NCBI GenBank assembly: GCA_014859735.1
Contig: JACUTR010000007.1
Coordinates: forward strand, 1-33,798
Length of the DNA stretch: 33,798 nt
Reading direction: 5' to 3'
Origin: Candidatus Methanophagales archaeon
GTDB taxonomy: Archaea; Halobacteriota; Syntropharchaeia; Alkanophagales; Methanospirareceae
Part shown: positions 15,079 through 33,528 of the stretch, piece after piece
Layout: every line of letters starts with the position of its first letter
Numbering within the stretch: position 1 is the first letter of the stretch
Notes under the pieces: model-generated
Told to the model about the DNA's origin: nothing
The model's input: the letters and a program-made list of their open reading frames with translations, nothing else
Database searches by the model: none
Translations under genes and position numbers: made by a program

Positions 15079-17256
15079 TCACTCTTTAGCCAGCTCTACT
15101 TCTCTTCTCTCAGCTTCGCCCTCTCCTGTTGCTGGTGCGGCTGCTTCAGCACCCCCGATCTCAACAAACTCAACCGGGACTGTCCGCTGCAACAATGCCT
15201 CTATCTGCGCATATACCTGTCTATCGCGGAAATGCTTCATTGTCGCTGCTCCGGAAGGACAAATCGCGTTACAACCACCGCACCCCTTGCACATAGCTTC
15301 GTTAACCGTCATCACTCTCCTTATCTCGTCAAGCGTGAGTGCACCATACGGACATATCTCGGCACAACTTCCGCATCCTATGCAAATCTCCTCGTTTATT
15401 TGTGATATTGCCGGCTCAATCCCCGCCCTACCCTGGACTAAATAAACCAGCGATCCCGATGCCGCTGCTTTTCCCTGTGCTATACTATCCGGGATATCCT
15501 TGGGACTCGCTGCACACCCTGCAATGAAGACGCCATCGGTTGCCGTATCAACCGGTCTCAGCTTCGGGTGCGCCTCTAATAAGAATGAGTCCGGAGATTG
15601 GGACAGTTTGAGCATACTTACGATGTCCCACACACCCTCATTCGGTTGCATTCCAACACCGAGAACCACAAGGTCTGCTTCGAGTTCATACGGCTCGCCG
15701 AGTAATGTATCTTCTGCTCGTACCACTACCCTGTCACTGCCCGGTTTCTGGTATATTTCAGCCGGAAGTCCTCGTCGATAGCTGACACCCTCTGATTTGA
15801 TATTCCCATAAAATTCCTCATCCCCTTTTCCAAATGCCCGTACATCTTGATAGCAGATCGTTACCTTCGCATCCGGCAGTTTCTCCTTTACCCTATGCGC
15901 CTGTTTTGCTAGATACATGCAGCAGACACGGGAGCAATATTCATGCCCCGTTTGCTTATTCCTCGAGCCAACACAGGAGATGAAAACCACATCCGTGGGC
16001 TCTTTGCCGTTTATTTCTATCTTACCACCCGTAGGACCGCTCGCTGCGGACAACCGTTCAAACTGTAATCCGGTAATAACATTTGGATACACGCCGTACT
16101 TGTATTCCGGCGACGTGCTCGGGTCAATGATGTCATACCCGGTCGCCACGATAATCGTTCCCACGTCTAAATCTTCTTTCACTTCCGTCATTCCGAAGTC
16201 TATAGCATCATATTCGCACGCGGCCATGCACGGTGGAACTGCTTTTCCTTCCTTAATCGTTTCAAGCGTTGCATCCCCACAGTTCCCCTCTTTGAAGAGC
16301 AAACAATTTTTGGGGTCAACGGTATAAAGGGGAGGAACGGCATTCGGGAACGGTAAGTAGATGGCCGTTCGGTTACTCAGCCACTCGTCAAACTCGCTTG
16401 GTATATCCTTCACCGGGCATGCCACTTCACATGCGCCACAGCCGGTGCACTTCTCATTCACATAACGCGGCTTACGCTTCACCGTTGCTTTGTAATTACC
16501 CACATAACCTTCGATATTTTCTACCTCGGAATACGTCATCAGATCGATGTTCGGATGTGCTCCGACATCTATCATCCGTGGTGTTAAAATCGAAGCCACG
16601 TTATCGAGGGTGGGATAAATTCTATCAAGTTGCGCGGCATGCCCTCCAATAGACGGTTTCTTCTCCACAAGATGCACCTTGTAGCCTGCATCCGCTATAG
16701 CCAATGCAGCATAGAGCCCGGTTACTCCACCACCTATTACTAACGTTTCAGGGACGACATCAACCTTCTTCTCCTCGATTAATTCTAATAATGCTGACCT
16801 TGCAACCGCACTTCTCAGCAGATCCTTCGCCTTCTGCGTCGCTTCTTTCTTGAAATCCCCGTGTGGCCAACTACAATGTTCGCGGATATTCGCCATCTCG
16901 AAGAAGAACGGATTAAGCCCTTCGCTGGCAATCGTTTTTCTGAATGTCGGCTCGTGCATCCGCGGCGAACAAGCAGCTACTATCACCCGGTTAACTCTAC
17001 CTGCTTTAATGTCCTCTTTTATGAGATTTTGCCCGGGGTCTGAACAGGTAAATATATAGTGTTGTGCAAGGGCCACGTTTGGCAACGTCGCGGCATACTT
17101 CACCAAATCCGGTACATCTAGCACCATCTTGATGTTTATCCCACAATGGCATATGTAAACGCCAATCCGTGGTGCGTCCTTCGGTGCGTTCGCAGCTACA
17201 CCCTCAACAGATCCCGTCATCGGGACTTTTGTATAATCATATTCTTCCTCTGCCAT
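15079..17256 (-). CDS. hdrA: HdrA-like protein, full-length (N-terminal Fe-S domain, FAD domain, inserted and C-terminal ferredoxin domains)
   Basis: PRIGVYICHCGINI, FTCSDPGQ, AACSPRMHEPTF, VIGGGVTGLYAAL, CVGSRNKQTGHEYCSRVCC, CIGCGSCAEICP, CKGCGGCNAICP. Confidence 0.93.
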   Translation of the reverse strand: MAEEEYDYTKVPMTGSVEGVAANAPKDAPRIGVYICHCGINIKMVLDVPDLVKYAATLPNVALAQHYIFTCSDPGQNLIKEDIKAGRVNRVIVAACSPRMHEPTFRKTIASEGLNPFFFEMANIREHCSWPHGDFKKEATQKAKDLLRSAVARSALLELIEEKKVDVVPETLVIGGGVTGLYAALAIADAGYKVHLVEKKPSIGGHAAQLDRIYPTLDNVASILTPRMIDVGAHPNIDLMTYSEVENIEGYVGNYKATVKRKPRYVNEKCTGCGACEVACPVKDIPSEFDEWLSNRTAIYLPFPNAVPPLYTVDPKNCLLFKEGNCGDATLETIKEGKAVPPCMAACEYDAIDFGMTEVKEDLDVGTIIVATGYDIIDPSTSPEYKYGVYPNVITGLQFERLSAASGPTGGKIEINGKEPTDVVFISCVGSRNKQTGHEYCSRVCCMYLAKQAHRVKEKLPDAKVTICYQDVRAFGKGDEEFYGNIKSEGVSYRRGLPAEIYQKPGSDRVVVRAEDTLLGEPYELEADLVVLGVGMQPNEGVWDIVSMLKLSQSPDSFLLEAHPKLRPVDTATDGVFIAGCAASPKDIPDSIAQGKAAASGSLVYLVQGRAGIEPAISQINEEICIGCGSCAEICPYGALTLDEIRRVMTVNEAMCKGCGGCNAICPSGAATMKHFRDRQVYAQIEALLQRTVPVEFVEIGGAEAAAPATGEGEAERREVELAKE

Positions 17257-17271
17257 CTTCTCTTTACCTCC

Positions 17272-18906
17272 TTATTTATGCCCTATTTTACCCGCCATAT
17301 CTCCTAATGACTTATACCCGACGCACAGCTCTTCGTCCATCTCTGCTACTGATGGTCTTATTTTCACTTTTCCACCGGCTAACAGAGAAAGAGAAGCCGC
17401 AGCAGCAGCTTTTCCCTGCGCCACACTGTCAGGAATATCCCGGGGAGCTTGCACACAGCCGGTAACAAAAATACCCCCTCTATCGGTATCAACCGGTCTG
17501 AGCTTTAGATGCGCCTCTTTTGCGAAATGATCTGTCGTTTCCCCGATACCTAACATCTTTAACAACTCGTCAGTGCCTGCACTTGGTTTCAATCCTACGC
17601 CAAGAACAACAATGTCTGCTTCGATCTCAAACGGCTCACCAAGCATTGTATCTTCACCCCGTACCACCACTCGGTCGCTCCCGGGCTTTTGATAGATCTC
17701 AGATGCAAGTCCCCGCCGGTAGTTAACACCCTCTCCTTTCACGCGATCATAAAATTCCTCAAAGCCCTTCCCAAATGCTCGTACATCCTGGTAGAGCACG
17801 GTTATCTTACAATCCGGAACCTTCTCACCCAGCAGATGTGCGTGTTTCGCTAAATACATACAGCAGACACGGGAACAGTATTCATACCCTGTTTGCTTAT
17901 TCCGCGATCCAACACAGGAGATAAATACGGCATCCTTCGGCAGCCTATCCACGCCCTTTACGATTACCTTACCAAAGGTGGGGCCGCTCGCACTAGAGTA
18001 GCGTTCGAATTCTAATCCCGTAATGACGTTGGGTAAAACCCCGTATTTGTACTCAGGCATCAAATTCGGATCTATAATGTCATAACCAGTAGCGACGATA
18101 ATCGTTCCCACATTCAGTTCAACGATCTCCTCCTTCATATCAAAATCTATACAGTTTGGTTCACAGATCAGAACACAGGGAGGAGCTTCATCTTTGGAAA
18201 CCTCTTCTCTTCTCTTCTTTTTTTCGAGTGCTTCCCTGGTAGATTCAAGAGTAGCTTTGCCACATTTTCCCTTCTTTATCATCTGGCAATACTCAGGGTC
18301 AACACAATAAACAGCCGGGATGGCCTGCGGAAACGGTCTATAGATCGAACTCTTTTTTCCTAGATTTTCATCAAATTCGTTTGGCCATTTGTATACAAAC
18401 CTGCATGCTTCTTCACATAACGCACATCCGGTGCACAGAGTTCCATATTCCCAATCCTTTTCATATACGTATCTTGGTTTTCTCTTTACCTTCACTTTGA
18501 AATTACCTACCGAGCCCTCCACGCCGACGATCTCTGAATAACTCATCAGGTTTATGTTTGGATGCTTTGAGACATCAACCATTCTCGGCGTTAGGATACA
18601 TGCGGAACAATCGAGCGTTGGGAATGTCTTATCAAGTTGTGCCATGTGCCCTCCGATCGTAGGTGTTCGCTCCACAAGATGCACCTTGAACCCTGCATCC
18701 GCGATATCCAACGCGGCATACATCCCTGCTATTCCACCGCCGATCACCAACGCTTCGGGAATAATGTCTACCTCCTTCTCCTCAATTTTCTCTAAACAGG
18801 AAGCTTCAACCCTGCTCTTTATGGAGCTCATTATCTCTCTCGTTGCTTCTTCCGTACCGATTTTCGTTTTCTCCTCCTCTCCTTTTACCTCAGCTTCGGT
18901 CGCCAT
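17272..18906 (-). CDS. Truncated HdrA-like protein (lacks N-terminal Fe-S domain and C-terminal ferredoxin)
   Basis: VIGGGIAGMYAALDIADAGF, CTGCALCEEACR, CVGSRNKQTGYEYCSRVCC; C-terminus MDEELCVGYKSLGDMAGKIGHK*; followed by GAGGT and the ATG of the next hdrA. Confidence 0.9.
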   Translation of the reverse strand: MATEAEVKGEEEKTKIGTEEATREIMSSIKSRVEASCLEKIEEKEVDIIPEALVIGGGIAGMYAALDIADAGFKVHLVERTPTIGGHMAQLDKTFPTLDCSACILTPRMVDVSKHPNINLMSYSEIVGVEGSVGNFKVKVKRKPRYVYEKDWEYGTLCTGCALCEEACRFVYKWPNEFDENLGKKSSIYRPFPQAIPAVYCVDPEYCQMIKKGKCGKATLESTREALEKKKRREEVSKDEAPPCVLICEPNCIDFDMKEEIVELNVGTIIVATGYDIIDPNLMPEYKYGVLPNVITGLEFERYSSASGPTFGKVIVKGVDRLPKDAVFISCVGSRNKQTGYEYCSRVCCMYLAKHAHLLGEKVPDCKITVLYQDVRAFGKGFEEFYDRVKGEGVNYRRGLASEIYQKPGSDRVVVRGEDTMLGEPFEIEADIVVLGVGLKPSAGTDELLKMLGIGETTDHFAKEAHLKLRPVDTDRGGIFVTGCVQAPRDIPDSVAQGKAAAAASLSLLAGGKVKIRPSVAEMDEELCVGYKSLGDMAGKIGHK

Positions 18907-18966: not shown

Positions 18967-20268
18967 TTACGGTGTTAACCTTCTCCTATCCCGCGGAAAA
19001 AGTACGACCTCTCTGACATTGTCTATCCCCAACATGCTCATCAGCAGCCGTTCAACGCCAAGCCCCCATCCCGCATGTGGCGGCATACCATACTGAAACG
19101 CGTTGAGATAAAACTCAAAACTAGCTGTGCCCAACCCTTTTGATTCTATGCTCTGCTTCAGCAACTCGTATGAATGAATCCGCTGCGAGCCGGAAGCAAG
19201 CTCTAATCGGGGATGCATCAGGTCGAACGCATTGCACGTATCCTTACCTTCAAGAGGTTGGGCGTAAAAAGGTTTGATCGCACAGGGCCACTCGGTGATG
19301 AAATAATGCTCGCCTATTCTCTCACCCAGGATATGTTCAGCCGAGGTGCTGAGGTCATCGCCCCATTCGATCTGCTCGCCTGCCTCTACAAGTAGTTCTA
19401 GTGCTTTCTCATAGGTTATACGCATGAATGGTATTTTTGGGACTTCCAATTGTAACTTCAAGCTATTTAAGTCGGGATATAACGCAAGGTTTGAATAGAC
19501 AAAGGTAATAAGCTCCTCTAATATCCTCATTACCTCCTCGGCAGATACAAATGCGACTTCTACATCCACCGAGGTTGCTTCGTTGAGATGTTTCGTGGTG
19601 TCATGCTCCTCAGCCCTGAATATAGGCGCAATTTCATACACGCGGTCAAATCCCGAAGCCATGAGCATTTGTTTGTACAGTTGGGGGCTCTGGTTTAAGA
19701 ACGCCTCCCGTTCAAAATACGAGATCGGAAAGAGCGCAGTGCCACCTTCCGTCGCCGCGCTCACTATTTTTGGCGTGTTTATCTCGATAAAGCCGCGGTC
19801 GCCGAGGAACTCCCTGATCACGTTAAGCACACGACTGCGAATAATAAATATGTGCTTTGTTCGCTCGGTTCTCAGGTCCATGAAGCGCGCATCCAACCTC
19901 GTATCCAGTTCTGCACCAACCTTTCCCGTGGTATCCAGTGGTAAAACGTGCGAGGCCGCACTGAGGACCTCCATTCGTTCGGGTAGTATCTCATATCCAC
20001 CGGGCGCTTTCTCCTCCCCCTTTACCACTCCTCCTATCGCTACCACTGATTCGCGAGGCACTTTTCTCGCTTGCTCAAACAGCTCCCGTTCAACTTCACC
20101 CTTGTGCAGGGTGACCTGAGCAAAGCCTTCACGGTCTCGCACGATGAGAAAAAAGACACCGCCTAAATCCCGCTTCTCATGTACCCAGCCCGCTATACTC
20201 ACCTCTTTTCCGTCATTCTTCGCGGTTATTTCATGTGAGTATCTTCTGTTCTCGATTGACAACTTCAT
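18967..20268 (-). CDS. aspS: Aspartyl-tRNA synthetase (archaeal type)
   Basis: GWVHEKRDLGGVFFLIVRDREG, FRAEEHDTTKHLNEATSVDVE, GWGLGVERLLMSMLGIDNVREVVLFPRDRRRLTP; start chosen at MKLSIENRRYSHE. Confidence 0.95.
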   Translation of the reverse strand: MKLSIENRRYSHEITAKNDGKEVSIAGWVHEKRDLGGVFFLIVRDREGFAQVTLHKGEVERELFEQARKVPRESVVAIGGVVKGEEKAPGGYEILPERMEVLSAASHVLPLDTTGKVGAELDTRLDARFMDLRTERTKHIFIIRSRVLNVIREFLGDRGFIEINTPKIVSAATEGGTALFPISYFEREAFLNQSPQLYKQMLMASGFDRVYEIAPIFRAEEHDTTKHLNEATSVDVEVAFVSAEEVMRILEELITFVYSNLALYPDLNSLKLQLEVPKIPFMRITYEKALELLVEAGEQIEWGDDLSTSAEHILGERIGEHYFITEWPCAIKPFYAQPLEGKDTCNAFDLMHPRLELASGSQRIHSYELLKQSIESKGLGTASFEFYLNAFQYGMPPHAGWGLGVERLLMSMLGIDNVREVVLFPRDRRRLTP

Positions 20269-20350
20269 ATTCACTACTTTACCATTGTGCTTAATATTAA
20301 CGCACTCTCGACAATCGCTCTTCGGGACAAGCCCTTCATTTGCTGGTGCT

Positions 20351-21832
20351 TCATTCAAAGAGCAACCGTGCAAGCATACTTTTCCTTACCTCCCTTACCT
20401 CCTCCCTGTCCGTTTCCACCTCAGCCTCTTTGCTCTCTTCACCCTCCCTTCCTGCAGCTCTCCCACCATGTTCACTTCTCCGCACGCGCACATCAACCAG
20501 TATCGGCATCTCTATGCTCGGACTCGAGAGTAATGCGACGCCCTGGGGTATTCTTTTGATCTCCTCTTCCGCTTCACTGCTCATGAACTCCAGACCCCTG
20601 CTTAAGGCCTTAATGTCGTTGGGATTCGTCACCTTCAGGATAATCTGCGTATTACACTGCGAGATAACGTTTTTATCCACCCGTGCGGGTCTTTGCGAGA
20701 TGACGAGCAGCCCAAGCCCAAATTTTCTGCCCTCCGAAGCGATGGTTCTCAGTATAGTGGAACTGACTGCCTGCCCGAACCCCCTTTCAGGACAGAAGTT
20801 GTGCGCCTCTTCAATAACCAGCATAAAAGGCGGGATCTTACCCATCTTCCTTCCTTCAAATACCTCTTTGCAGAGATGGTAAACAATAAATTCCTGCAAT
20901 TTCGGCTCAGTTCCTTTCATGTCGATTATAGACGCCCTTCCCGCTTTTACGAGCTCTTCTATGCGCGTCGGGCTATCGGATAATATACCAGTCTCTCGGA
21001 TCCTTTCCAGATAGTGAATGATTCTCCATTTAGCTCTGCTTTTACTCGCTGCCACTTCCTTAATGATGTTCTCGATCGTATAAAACTCCTTTTTAGCTTT
21101 TATTTCGTTTATAGCCTGGTATAAAACACCCAATTGAGGATCAGACAGGGGAAAGAAATCATATAATTCATTCACACTCAAATTTATCCCGTCTATGCGA
21201 AATAACTTATCTGCATCGGGATTTATGGACAGATTGGAGGGTGTATACACAACGACTTGCGAGGCATAGCCTTTGGGGGAGATGCCGAACTTTTCCATCT
21301 GGTTTCGCTCATCTTCATTCCTATTCTCGTGTTTCAGTGAGATATATTCGCCGTGCGGGTCAATTATAAGCAGGGGAACGTTCTTTTCGAGCAATTCCTC
21401 GATGAGCACGCCAGCCGTGTACGATTTCCCACTACCCGTCTTCGCTAATATGCTGCAGTGTTTCTGGATGAGTTCCTCTTTCCTCAGATACACCGGAATA
21501 GTGCGCCCGTCAATCAGCCCTAAGTAGATCCCCCCTGATTTGAGCCCGAGGGTGTCCATGATGAACGCCTGATCTGCCTTGAACACCTTCTCATCTCGAG
21601 CGAAGGTGTTCTTCGGCTGCATTAAAAACCCTCGTGTGTCTTTATACCCGATAATCTCTGCGGTAGCTATTTTTTTCTTCGCATCAACGATAGAGACAAC
21701 CCTTCCCAGTATCCAGCCATCTAATTCGTTCCATACCTTTACATACTCGTTCCTTCGTACCTCGCCCGCAACGACAAAATCAAATTTGTGCAGCCCCACT
21801 TCGCCCCAAATGGTGCCTACCAATTTATACAT
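20351..21832 (-). CDS. HerA-like ATPase (HAS-barrel plus P-loop)
   Basis: Walker A AKTGSGKSYTAGVLIEELL, LLIIDPHGEY, FMLVIEEAHNFCPE, GLGLLVISQRPARVDKNVISQCNTQIILKV. Confidence 0.88.
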   Translation of the reverse strand: MYKLVGTIWGEVGLHKFDFVVAGEVRRNEYVKVWNELDGWILGRVVSIVDAKKKIATAEIIGYKDTRGFLMQPKNTFARDEKVFKADQAFIMDTLGLKSGGIYLGLIDGRTIPVYLRKEELIQKHCSILAKTGSGKSYTAGVLIEELLEKNVPLLIIDPHGEYISLKHENRNEDERNQMEKFGISPKGYASQVVVYTPSNLSINPDADKLFRIDGINLSVNELYDFFPLSDPQLGVLYQAINEIKAKKEFYTIENIIKEVAASKSRAKWRIIHYLERIRETGILSDSPTRIEELVKAGRASIIDMKGTEPKLQEFIVYHLCKEVFEGRKMGKIPPFMLVIEEAHNFCPERGFGQAVSSTILRTIASEGRKFGLGLLVISQRPARVDKNVISQCNTQIILKVTNPNDIKALSRGLEFMSSEAEEEIKRIPQGVALLSSPSIEMPILVDVRVRRSEHGGRAAGREGEESKEAEVETDREEVREVRKSMLARLLFE

Positions 21833-23110: not shown

Positions 23111-24766
23111 ATGGTTGCACTGACATTTTATGGCGGAGCGGGTGAAATTGGAGGCACCAAGATTCTCGTGGAACACCAGGGCACCCGCCTCATGCTGGAC
23201 TTCGGAACCCGAATGGGGTTTGTCTCGGAGTTCTTCTCGGAGTTTCTGGACGTTCGAGCAAACACGGAGTTGAAGGACAAGCTCACTATTGGTGCCCTTC
23301 CTGTAATCCCGGGAGTATATCGGAAGGATCTGATCTGTCCAAGTGGTGTGGCGACCCTCTCAAACGCGAGGTACAGAAGAGTAATCGCTCCCGATTCGGC
23401 GATGCTAAAAATTCCCGGGCTTGTAACTCATGAAGAGTATATTCAAAAGCATGGTCGGGGTTACGTCGATGGGATATTACTCAGCCACGCTCATCGGGAT
23501 CATTCAGGGGACATCGGATTTCTCCACGCGTCTATTCCACTCTACTGTTCCAGGACCACCCTTACCTTGGTCGAGGCCATTGACGATGTTACCACCTTCA
23601 AGTCAGAGGCGTTGAGGTCGAAAAGGTTCTGTGTTGCGTTCAGCGAGCGAGGTGCCATGCCGGGAAGCCCAAAGATAGAGCATAAGGAGATGCTGGTCCG
23701 AAAGTGCAGCGTCTTGGAGGACGGTGAAGGGACGGACATCGGATCGTTTCGAGCCACCATGATCGAGGTAGACCACTCCCTCCCTGGCGCGGCGAGCTAC
23801 CTCTTAGCGTGCGATGTCAATGGTGCGCCCTTTCGAATTCTTTACACCGGGGACATCCGGTTCCACGGGATTAAAGGTAGCACAATCGATGAGTACGTCA
23901 GGGCGATAGGGCGCAGTATAGACATTATGATCTGCGAAGGCACTCGGATCGATTCAGACTCGAAGCTTTCCGAGGAGACGGTTCGCTCTAAGATCGCGGA
24001 AGAGATTGCGGAAACAGATGGTCTGGTCTTCGTCGATTTCAGCTGGAAAGACACCACCCGGTATGAGACGATCAGTAAGGCGGCAGAATCATGTGACCGA
24101 ATATTCGTTATAAACGCTCGGCTCGCGTACATCTTGAACAAACTGGGGCTAACACCCTTGCCTGAATCCGTCAGGGTATTTCTCAAGCGTAAGGGGAGCT
24201 GCTTTTATTCTCCCGCTGACTACGCTCACTATAAGCACGAATACGGGTATTCCGTTGATCGGGACACGTGGACACAGGATTCCAGTCATTATGACAACGG
24301 GCTGGTGGCAGAAGAGATCAAGTCTAACCCGAGCACGTACGTTTTGATGCTCTCTTATTACGACTTAGGCCAGCTCTTCGACTTAGCGGATGAGACGGGC
24401 AAAATACGGGGTTCTCGATTCATAAGGGCACAATGTGAACCGTTCTCTGACGAGATGGAACTGGACGAGGAGCGATTCATTAATTGGTTAGATGCCTTTG
24501 GCATCAGGTACAGCCTGGGCGAAACACCACTTCCAGAAGGATGTTCCAATCCCACATGTTCCAAGCTCAAGAGGAGGATCGATCGTTCACATGCTTCCGG
24601 TCACGCCTCCCGACCGGAGTTGAAAGAACTCATCGGGAAAATTAACCCTCAGATATTGATTCCTGTCCATACCGAGAGACCAGAGGTCTTTGAAGAACTT
24701 GTTGAAGAGATCGGTGAGGATATTGACGTGCTCATCCCGGAATTGGGTAAGACGTATACCTTCTAA
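23111..24766 (+). CDS. MBL-fold beta-CASP metallo-hydrolase, RNase J-like
   Basis: FYGGAGEIGGTKIL, LSHAHRDHSGDIGFLH (HxHxDH), YTGDIRFHG, SHASGHAS and IPVHTERPEVF beta-CASP-type motifs. Confidence 0.85.
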   Translation: MVALTFYGGAGEIGGTKILVEHQGTRLMLDFGTRMGFVSEFFSEFLDVRANTELKDKLTIGALPVIPGVYRKDLICPSGVATLSNARYRRVIAPDSAMLKIPGLVTHEEYIQKHGRGYVDGILLSHAHRDHSGDIGFLHASIPLYCSRTTLTLVEAIDDVTTFKSEALRSKRFCVAFSERGAMPGSPKIEHKEMLVRKCSVLEDGEGTDIGSFRATMIEVDHSLPGAASYLLACDVNGAPFRILYTGDIRFHGIKGSTIDEYVRAIGRSIDIMICEGTRIDSDSKLSEETVRSKIAEEIAETDGLVFVDFSWKDTTRYETISKAAESCDRIFVINARLAYILNKLGLTPLPESVRVFLKRKGSCFYSPADYAHYKHEYGYSVDRDTWTQDSSHYDNGLVAEEIKSNPSTYVLMLSYYDLGQLFDLADETGKIRGSRFIRAQCEPFSDEMELDEERFINWLDAFGIRYSLGETPLPEGCSNPTCSKLKRRIDRSHASGHASRPELKELIGKINPQILIPVHTERPEVFEELVEEIGEDIDVLIPELGKTYTF

Positions 24767-32454: not shown

Positions 32455-33528
32455 TTACCTTCCCCGGTGCTTCGCACCAATCTCTTGTAACTCTTTTATC
32501 CGCGGTATATCCGATACGCCTGAAAACAGAACGATCATCGAGACATGCTGCCCCTTTACCAGTGGGAAATCACCGCCCCGTACTTCTTTTCCTCTTATCA
32601 GCTCTTCGATTCGCATCTTTGACTTCTCTATACCCTTCCTACTTAACTCCGTGGGTGGTCCTGCGGCGATTATCAATGCCTTCTCCGCAGTTGAAACATC
32701 ACAGGGGATCGTTAATCTGCCTGCTGCTGCTCGCCTCACCAGAGAGGTAATTCTTGTAACGGTATCCAGATTCTCCATAGTTTCTTTTTTACCAAAGAGC
32801 TTCTTAAAAACCCCTTCTCGCTCTATTTCTTCGGATGCATAGCCAATCGTCGAGACCCGACCTCCTTTAAGTGTGTTGATCACCTCAGCCGCATCGACTA
32901 CCATCTGTCCCACCTCATTCGCTTCGCCCGCCGCAAACAATATCCAGAATCTCCTCACAATTTCCTCATTTATCTCCTCAAATGCTTCCTTTACACTCTC
33001 TCCACCCTTCTTCCACGCGTCATTGTCAAAGAGGAAGAGATTGTCCACCTCGTTCACAAAAGTCATCAGGCTTCTCGCGGCATTCAAAGCAGATAAGCCC
33101 CCCTCATCCTTCGCGGGAAGTATCCCAAGTCCATAAATCGGTTCCTCATACAACTTCTTCAGTCTTCTTGCTAATACCGGTGCCCCTCCAGACCCTGTTC
33201 CGCCTCCTAAACCTGCTATTATCAGGAAAGCATCAATCTGATGTGTCCCGCGTTTATCTATCTCGCTCTGTATCGTATAAATCTCATCAGCGGCAACCAG
33301 TCCTCCTAGTTCAGTATCAGCACCTGTTCCATGCCCCCTCGTTTTCGACTCTCCTACAAGTAACCTGTCCTCCAGTGGTATGTTCTTTAGTCCCATCAAA
33401 TCTGCCCGTGCGGTATTGATAACCAATGTGTGACCTATGAACTTCTGTCTGGTCTTCTTAGCAAAATCGAGAAACGTATCCGCAACTCTCCCTCCGGCCT
33501 GTCCAAAACCTATGACAAATACCCGCAT
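32455..33528 (-). CDS. CetZ-like tubulin/FtsZ-superfamily protein
   Basis: MRVFVIGFGQAGGRVADTFL, NTARADLMGL, tubulin signature AGLGGGTGSGGAPVLARRLK. Confidence 0.88.
   Translation of the reverse strand: MRVFVIGFGQAGGRVADTFLDFAKKTRQKFIGHTLVINTARADLMGLKNIPLEDRLLVGESKTRGHGTGADTELGGLVAADEIYTIQSEIDKRGTHQIDAFLIIAGLGGGTGSGGAPVLARRLKKLYEEPIYGLGILPAKDEGGLSALNAARSLMTFVNEVDNLFLFDNDAWKKGGESVKEAFEEINEEIVRRFWILFAAGEANEVGQMVVDAAEVINTLKGGRVSTIGYASEEIEREGVFKKLFGKKETMENLDTVTRITSLVRRAAAGRLTIPCDVSTAEKALIIAAGPPTELSRKGIEKSKMRIEELIRGKEVRGGDFPLVKGQHVSMIVLFSGVSDIPRIKELQEIGAKHRGR

Follow-up and report, generated by a model that had tools for sequence, protein, structure and literature searches.

We found that two adjacent genes of an ANME-1 archaeon (Methanophagales) encode HdrA, the subunit at which heterodisulfide reductase splits electrons, in two versions of unequal length with complementary losses. 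From this reciprocal loss of domains and ligands we infer, with high confidence, that the short and the long protein would form an obligate heterodimer, because each subunit has lost a part that is supplied by the other. The best joint explanation, which we consider quite probable, is an obligate and unequal HdrA heterodimer that originated by duplication within ANME-1 and works with HdrC-HdrB and MvhD/FrhB-type partners.

Domain content and complementarity of the HdrA pair

The pair is located in a stretch of 33,798 nucleotides, termed here the window, which is contig C121 of a 1.68-Mb assembly. The features used in this study are as follows:

15079..17256, minus strand: long HdrA, 725 aa, with the N-terminal Fe-S domain, TrxR/FAD core, inserted ferredoxin and C-terminal ferredoxin
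15232..15405, minus strand: C-terminal 2x[4Fe-4S] ferredoxin of the long HdrA (Pfam Fer4)
16591..16602, minus strand: NVAS of the long HdrA, at the site of the lost Cys194 and Cys197
16807..17175, minus strand: N-terminal Fe-S domain of the long HdrA (Cys36, 38, 71 and 96)
17257..17271, minus strand: 15-bp intergenic gap with a GGAGGT ribosome-binding site
17272..18906, minus strand: short HdrA, 544 aa, with the TrxR/FAD core and inserted ferredoxin, without the N-terminal Fe-S domain and the C-terminal ferredoxin
17302..17331, minus strand: CVGYKSL of the short HdrA, the degenerate remnant of the first C-terminal ferredoxin motif (column alignment)
18598..18609, minus strand: CSAC of the short HdrA, Cys100 and Cys103, the latter being the Cys197 equivalent (5odc_A alignment)
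18967..20373, minus strand: aspS, aspartate--tRNA(Asn) ligase, a frequent upstream neighbour of the HdrA pair that lies outside the complex

The coordinates, the protein lengths, the shared strand, the 15-bp gap and the ribosome-binding site (GGAGGT) are all as given in the original prediction, and the short and long HdrA share 59% identity across 520 residues. Elsewhere the window encodes a CetZ-like protein of the tubulin/FtsZ family (32455-33528, minus strand) and a protein with a weak match to the beta-CASP RNase J family (23111-24766, plus strand).

Both proteins are HdrA according to curated models and solved relatives, with 5odc_A as the top PDB match of each (E 1.8e-222 for the long and 1.7e-152 for the short HdrA). 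The long HdrA scores 817.6, 599.5 and 533.8 bits against NF041778, NF041891 and NF040770, respectively, and the short HdrA scores lower; neither protein reaches the NCBIfam equivalog cut-offs of these models (1100, 1400 and 1300 bits). Both have a TrxR-like FAD domain, in which the C-x12-C-x3-CC cluster and the equivalents of E356 and K409 are present, and an inserted ferredoxin whose two [4Fe-4S] motifs retain 8/8 Cys in the long and in the short HdrA. Column alignment agreed with the original description of the short protein, which was said to keep the FAD domain, the inserted ferredoxin and the C-x12-C-x3-CC cluster and to lack the four-Cys domain at the N terminus as well as the ferredoxin at the C terminus. 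The first motif of the C-terminal ferredoxin reads CVGYKSL in the short HdrA instead of CIGCGSC, and this remnant indicates that the loss of the C-terminal ferredoxin is secondary. The AlphaFold2 monomer of the short HdrA is of moderate quality (pLDDT 71), with a fold like that of the 8rvu and 5odc HdrA and with the Cys197 loop (residues 89-103) mostly below 50 pLDDT; this predicted model only confirms the HdrA fold.

In solved HdrA homodimers, the Cys197 ligand of each N-terminal cluster is donated by the opposite subunit (Chadwick et al. 2022, PMC9012536). Cys197 is the second Cys of DCSIC when counted along the 5odc_A alignment, and at this site the short HdrA reads DCSAC, with the Cys kept, whereas the long HdrA reads DNVAS, with the Cys lost. 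The combination of an N-terminal domain and Cys197 in one polypeptide, which characterises the canonical homodimer, is consequently found in neither protein, since the long HdrA is without Cys197 and the short HdrA is without the domain. The long partner had been predicted to carry every module that the short one lacks, which holds for the N-terminal domain and the C-terminal ferredoxin but does not extend to the Cys197 and Cys194 equivalents, both of which are missing.

The same complementarity was observed in the relatives: at readable sites, the short proteins have both Cys and no N-terminal domain, and the long proteins have the four N-terminal Cys and no Cys197. The reciprocal loss was found in 27/27 complete ANME-1 pairs counted, namely 25 by automatic count, L079 by eye (its N-terminal extension was misaligned) and the window pair; the automatic count returned 25 complementary complete pairs and 2 partial records with 0 exceptions. 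Among more distant matches, Cys197 is kept in 46/47 HdrAs with an N-terminal domain, and the sole exception is the 563-aa member of an Anaerolineae pair, which is itself half of such a pair.

Furthermore, the Cys197 loop shows little or no variation in the short proteins or in bacterial and archaeal single-copy HdrAs, and is variable in the long proteins. We defined 109 core positions as near-invariant in both the short proteins and the single-copy HdrAs, and counted a position as changed when it differed in at least 30% of the long proteins. Fourteen of the 109 are changed, 7/15 in the Cys197 loop compared with 7/94 elsewhere (Fisher p 4e-4, to be taken as a guide only because the sequences are related). 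The short HdrA departs at 3/90 comparable positions. The simplest reading is that the loop of the long subunit would no longer take up the N-terminal domain of its partner. Collectively, the asymmetric HdrA/HdrA' heterodimer proposed for these genes appears well supported, by the reciprocal loss in every complete pair and by a docking loop that seems to be released in the long subunit only.

Distribution and origin of the pair

The short and long genes are adjacent in all pairs and are kept together in nearly all Methanophagales relatives, so that the pairing, for which a synteny check had been suggested in the original prediction, is conserved. About 27 relatives have retained the short HdrA as an open frame, with 73-86% identity; no close match to its gene was found in G021 and G031. 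Relatives with one gene alone, named beforehand as the case against a heterodimer, were not encountered: the long-only G009 and the short-only G002 end at contig edges, and the genuine single-copy relatives are separate lineages that have both the N-terminal domain and Cys197.

In a 60-row HdrA tree built without trait columns, the phylogeny that had been suggested as a check places all short proteins in one clade (98/91) and all long proteins in another (100/99). These two clades are sisters within ANME-1, beside single-copy HdrAs having both features; in a smaller tree the long clade was not recovered whole. Most likely, a full-length HdrA was duplicated once within ANME-1 and the two copies then underwent reciprocal loss; gene conversion may have contributed to this history. 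A separate record, L075/L183 (DYFG01000018), carries a single-copy HdrA followed by a fragment of a short HdrA at the contig end; it is labelled Nitrosotalea and carries ANME-1 genes, and the bin is probably mislabelled.

Complementary HdrAs also occur outside this clade. The source genome carries two more complementary HdrA pairs of a different clade, on C132 (L161, 443 and 821 aa) and on C29 (L162, 421 and 571 aa). An Anaerolineales bacterium (L111, 4009-8175) encodes a short HdrA of 453 aa with Cys197, next to a partner of 563 aa that has the N-terminal domain, has lost Cys197 and has no inserted ferredoxin; this bacterial pair looks independent of the archaeal ones. The C132, C29 and L111 pairs and a fusion in G037 branch away from the window pair.

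Candidate partners and the proposed division of roles

Family searches of the genome for hdrB, mvhD and frhB bore out their absence from the window, and hdrCB and mvhD are unlinked to the HdrA pair in the source genome. The pair follows aspS there and in many relatives. In L066, G015 and G023, which belong to one genus, the genes form a short-long-hdrC-hdrB operon that is divergent from an mvhD-frhB-hdrC-hdrB-hdrA905 operon, and the pair is also close to the latter operon in L053, L074 and L076 (in L074 and L076 this operon runs off the contig). Within the source genome, hdrC-hdrB orthologues (77%) are found on C38, and mvhD-frhB-hdrC-hdrB-hdrA905 on C99. The latter genes are preceded by a single-copy HdrA, of which the N-terminal part is encoded on C126 together with mvhA, mvhG and mvhD. 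The partners, originally described as unknown, are thereby narrowed to hdrC-hdrB and mvhD-frhB, with candidate genes on other contigs. In the complex, the CoM/CoB thiol-disulfide couple would most likely be handled by HdrC-HdrB and the mid-potential electrons by an MvhD/FrhB-type module, and the reaction may run as bifurcation or confurcation.

Two observations concern the neighbouring HdrAs. The stretches G000:C126 (502-3586) and C99 (1-8460), which are joined in G003:C121 (L163), contain a [NiFe]-hydrogenase-like cluster (mvhD-mvhG-mvhA); the single-copy HdrA encoded with it has Cys197 and is followed by mvhD-frhB-hdrC-hdrB-hdrA905. The hdrA905 gene (L053:3403-6117 and relatives), in an operon with mvhD, frhB, hdrC and hdrB, encodes a 905-aa double HdrA, in the second half of which the N-terminal domain is degenerate and the TrxR cluster is missing.

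In the heterodimer, Cys103 of the short subunit would serve as the missing ligand of the N-terminal Fe-S cluster in the long subunit. In solved HdrA, the arm formed by the terminal domains of one subunit acts on the FAD' of the other HdrA, with high-potential electrons leaving via HA4' and low-potential electrons via the shuttle cluster to HA5' (PMC12350162). The label HA3 is used for different clusters, in the N-terminal domain (PMC9012536) or at the C terminus (legend of PMC12350162). As terminal domains serve the FAD of the other HdrA in solved structures, the short subunit would carry the arm-served bifurcating site and the long subunit the mobile arm. Under this hypothesis, to which we attach medium confidence, the long subunit would provide the sole arm, and the short one the FAD, TrxR cluster and inserted ferredoxin on which this arm would act.

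The other complementary HdrAs agree with this assignment: in C132, C29, L111 and the G037 fusion, the partner bearing the N-terminal domain is without Cys197 and without the whole inserted ferredoxin, and the short partner has both. A stronger version describes a half-of-the-sites Hdr, in which the short subunit has the only arm-served bifurcating FAD and the low-potential exit, the long subunit donates the arm while its own core is unserved, and a similar split arose separately in other ANME pairs, fused HdrAs and Anaerolineae. We hold this combined version tentatively, at slightly below an even chance.

Counting against a strict division, the long HdrA keeps all Cys of the inserted ferredoxin and of the TrxR cluster as well as the E356/K409 equivalents, which weakens the assignment because its own FAD may still work. 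For the same reason, the single low-potential exit originally envisaged does not follow from Fe-S content alone, as the exit ferredoxin (8/8 Cys) is intact in both subunits. An alternative that we judge rather unlikely builds on these retained residues and proposes that the heterodimer is real and that both FADs are active, the core of the long subunit being served by another arm, e.g. that of the fused HdrA905, in a larger asymmetric assembly. HdrA905 is encoded beside the pair in several genomes and has a ferredoxin at its C terminus and a degenerate N-terminal domain; however, this domain is without two of its four Cys, and the docking loop of the long subunit is relaxed and its Cys197 gone.

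We consider it improbable that the two proteins form independent homodimers serving different pathways, with the tandem layout a relic of duplication. Both proteins keep their FAD and Fe-S residues, and full-length single-copy HdrAs, expected to be homodimeric, occur in the same genomes, but a long/long dimer would be without the fourth ligand of its N-terminal cluster, a short/short dimer would have no arm and no cluster for its Cys197 to complete, and the two genes are kept together in nearly all relatives. That the short copy is a decaying pseudogene, as the loss of two terminal modules and the degenerate Fe-S remnant might suggest, is rejected as extremely improbable, given an open frame conserved in about 27 relatives and a core that departs less from conserved positions than that of the long protein.

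Relation to known HdrA systems

The idea of a tandem HdrA heterodimer is already known: Chadwick et al. 2022 (PMC9012536) describe tandem ANME HdrAs (5/6 and 12/13), their Cys197 complementarity and a heterodimer proposal. The window pair does not differ in kind from these tandem HdrAs, being alike in adjacency and in the complementary N-terminal domain and Cys197, and it has orthologues in genomes from the same study (GB37 = L070, GB60 = L078, GoMg2 = L061). Judging from domain content, the window pair is probably HdrA5 (long) and HdrA6 (short) and not 12/13, since the 12-like partners on C132 and C29 are without the inserted ferredoxin that the long HdrA of the window has. The fused double HdrA (HdrA3/4, type II; PMC9012536 and G037) is likewise made up of two TrxR/FAD halves, which complement each other in the N-terminal domain and Cys197; it differs in being one polypeptide of another clade, and the arm-bearing half of the G037 fusion is without the inserted ferredoxin.

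The 544-aa protein probably also belongs to HdrA6 as classified by Lyu et al. 2025 (PMC12054007), having neither the Fe-S domain at the N terminus nor the ferredoxin at the C terminus; this class of 171 sequences is based on domains, and pairing is outside its definition. The fold, FAD residues, inserted ferredoxin and TrxR cluster are shared with the HdrA of HdrABC-Mvh (5odc), Fdh-Hdr-Fmd (7bkb) and Elp-Hdr (8rvu). In contrast to the window pair, each of these is the product of one gene and forms a symmetric dimer with both features in each subunit.

In the Chadwick text (PMC9012536), we found neither a mobile arm nor service in trans mentioned. This study adds the pair counts, the partner operons and the proposed assignment of core and arm. 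A naturally asymmetric HdrA would make it possible to ask which of the FADs and exits are in use; symmetric homodimers give no clean answer to this.
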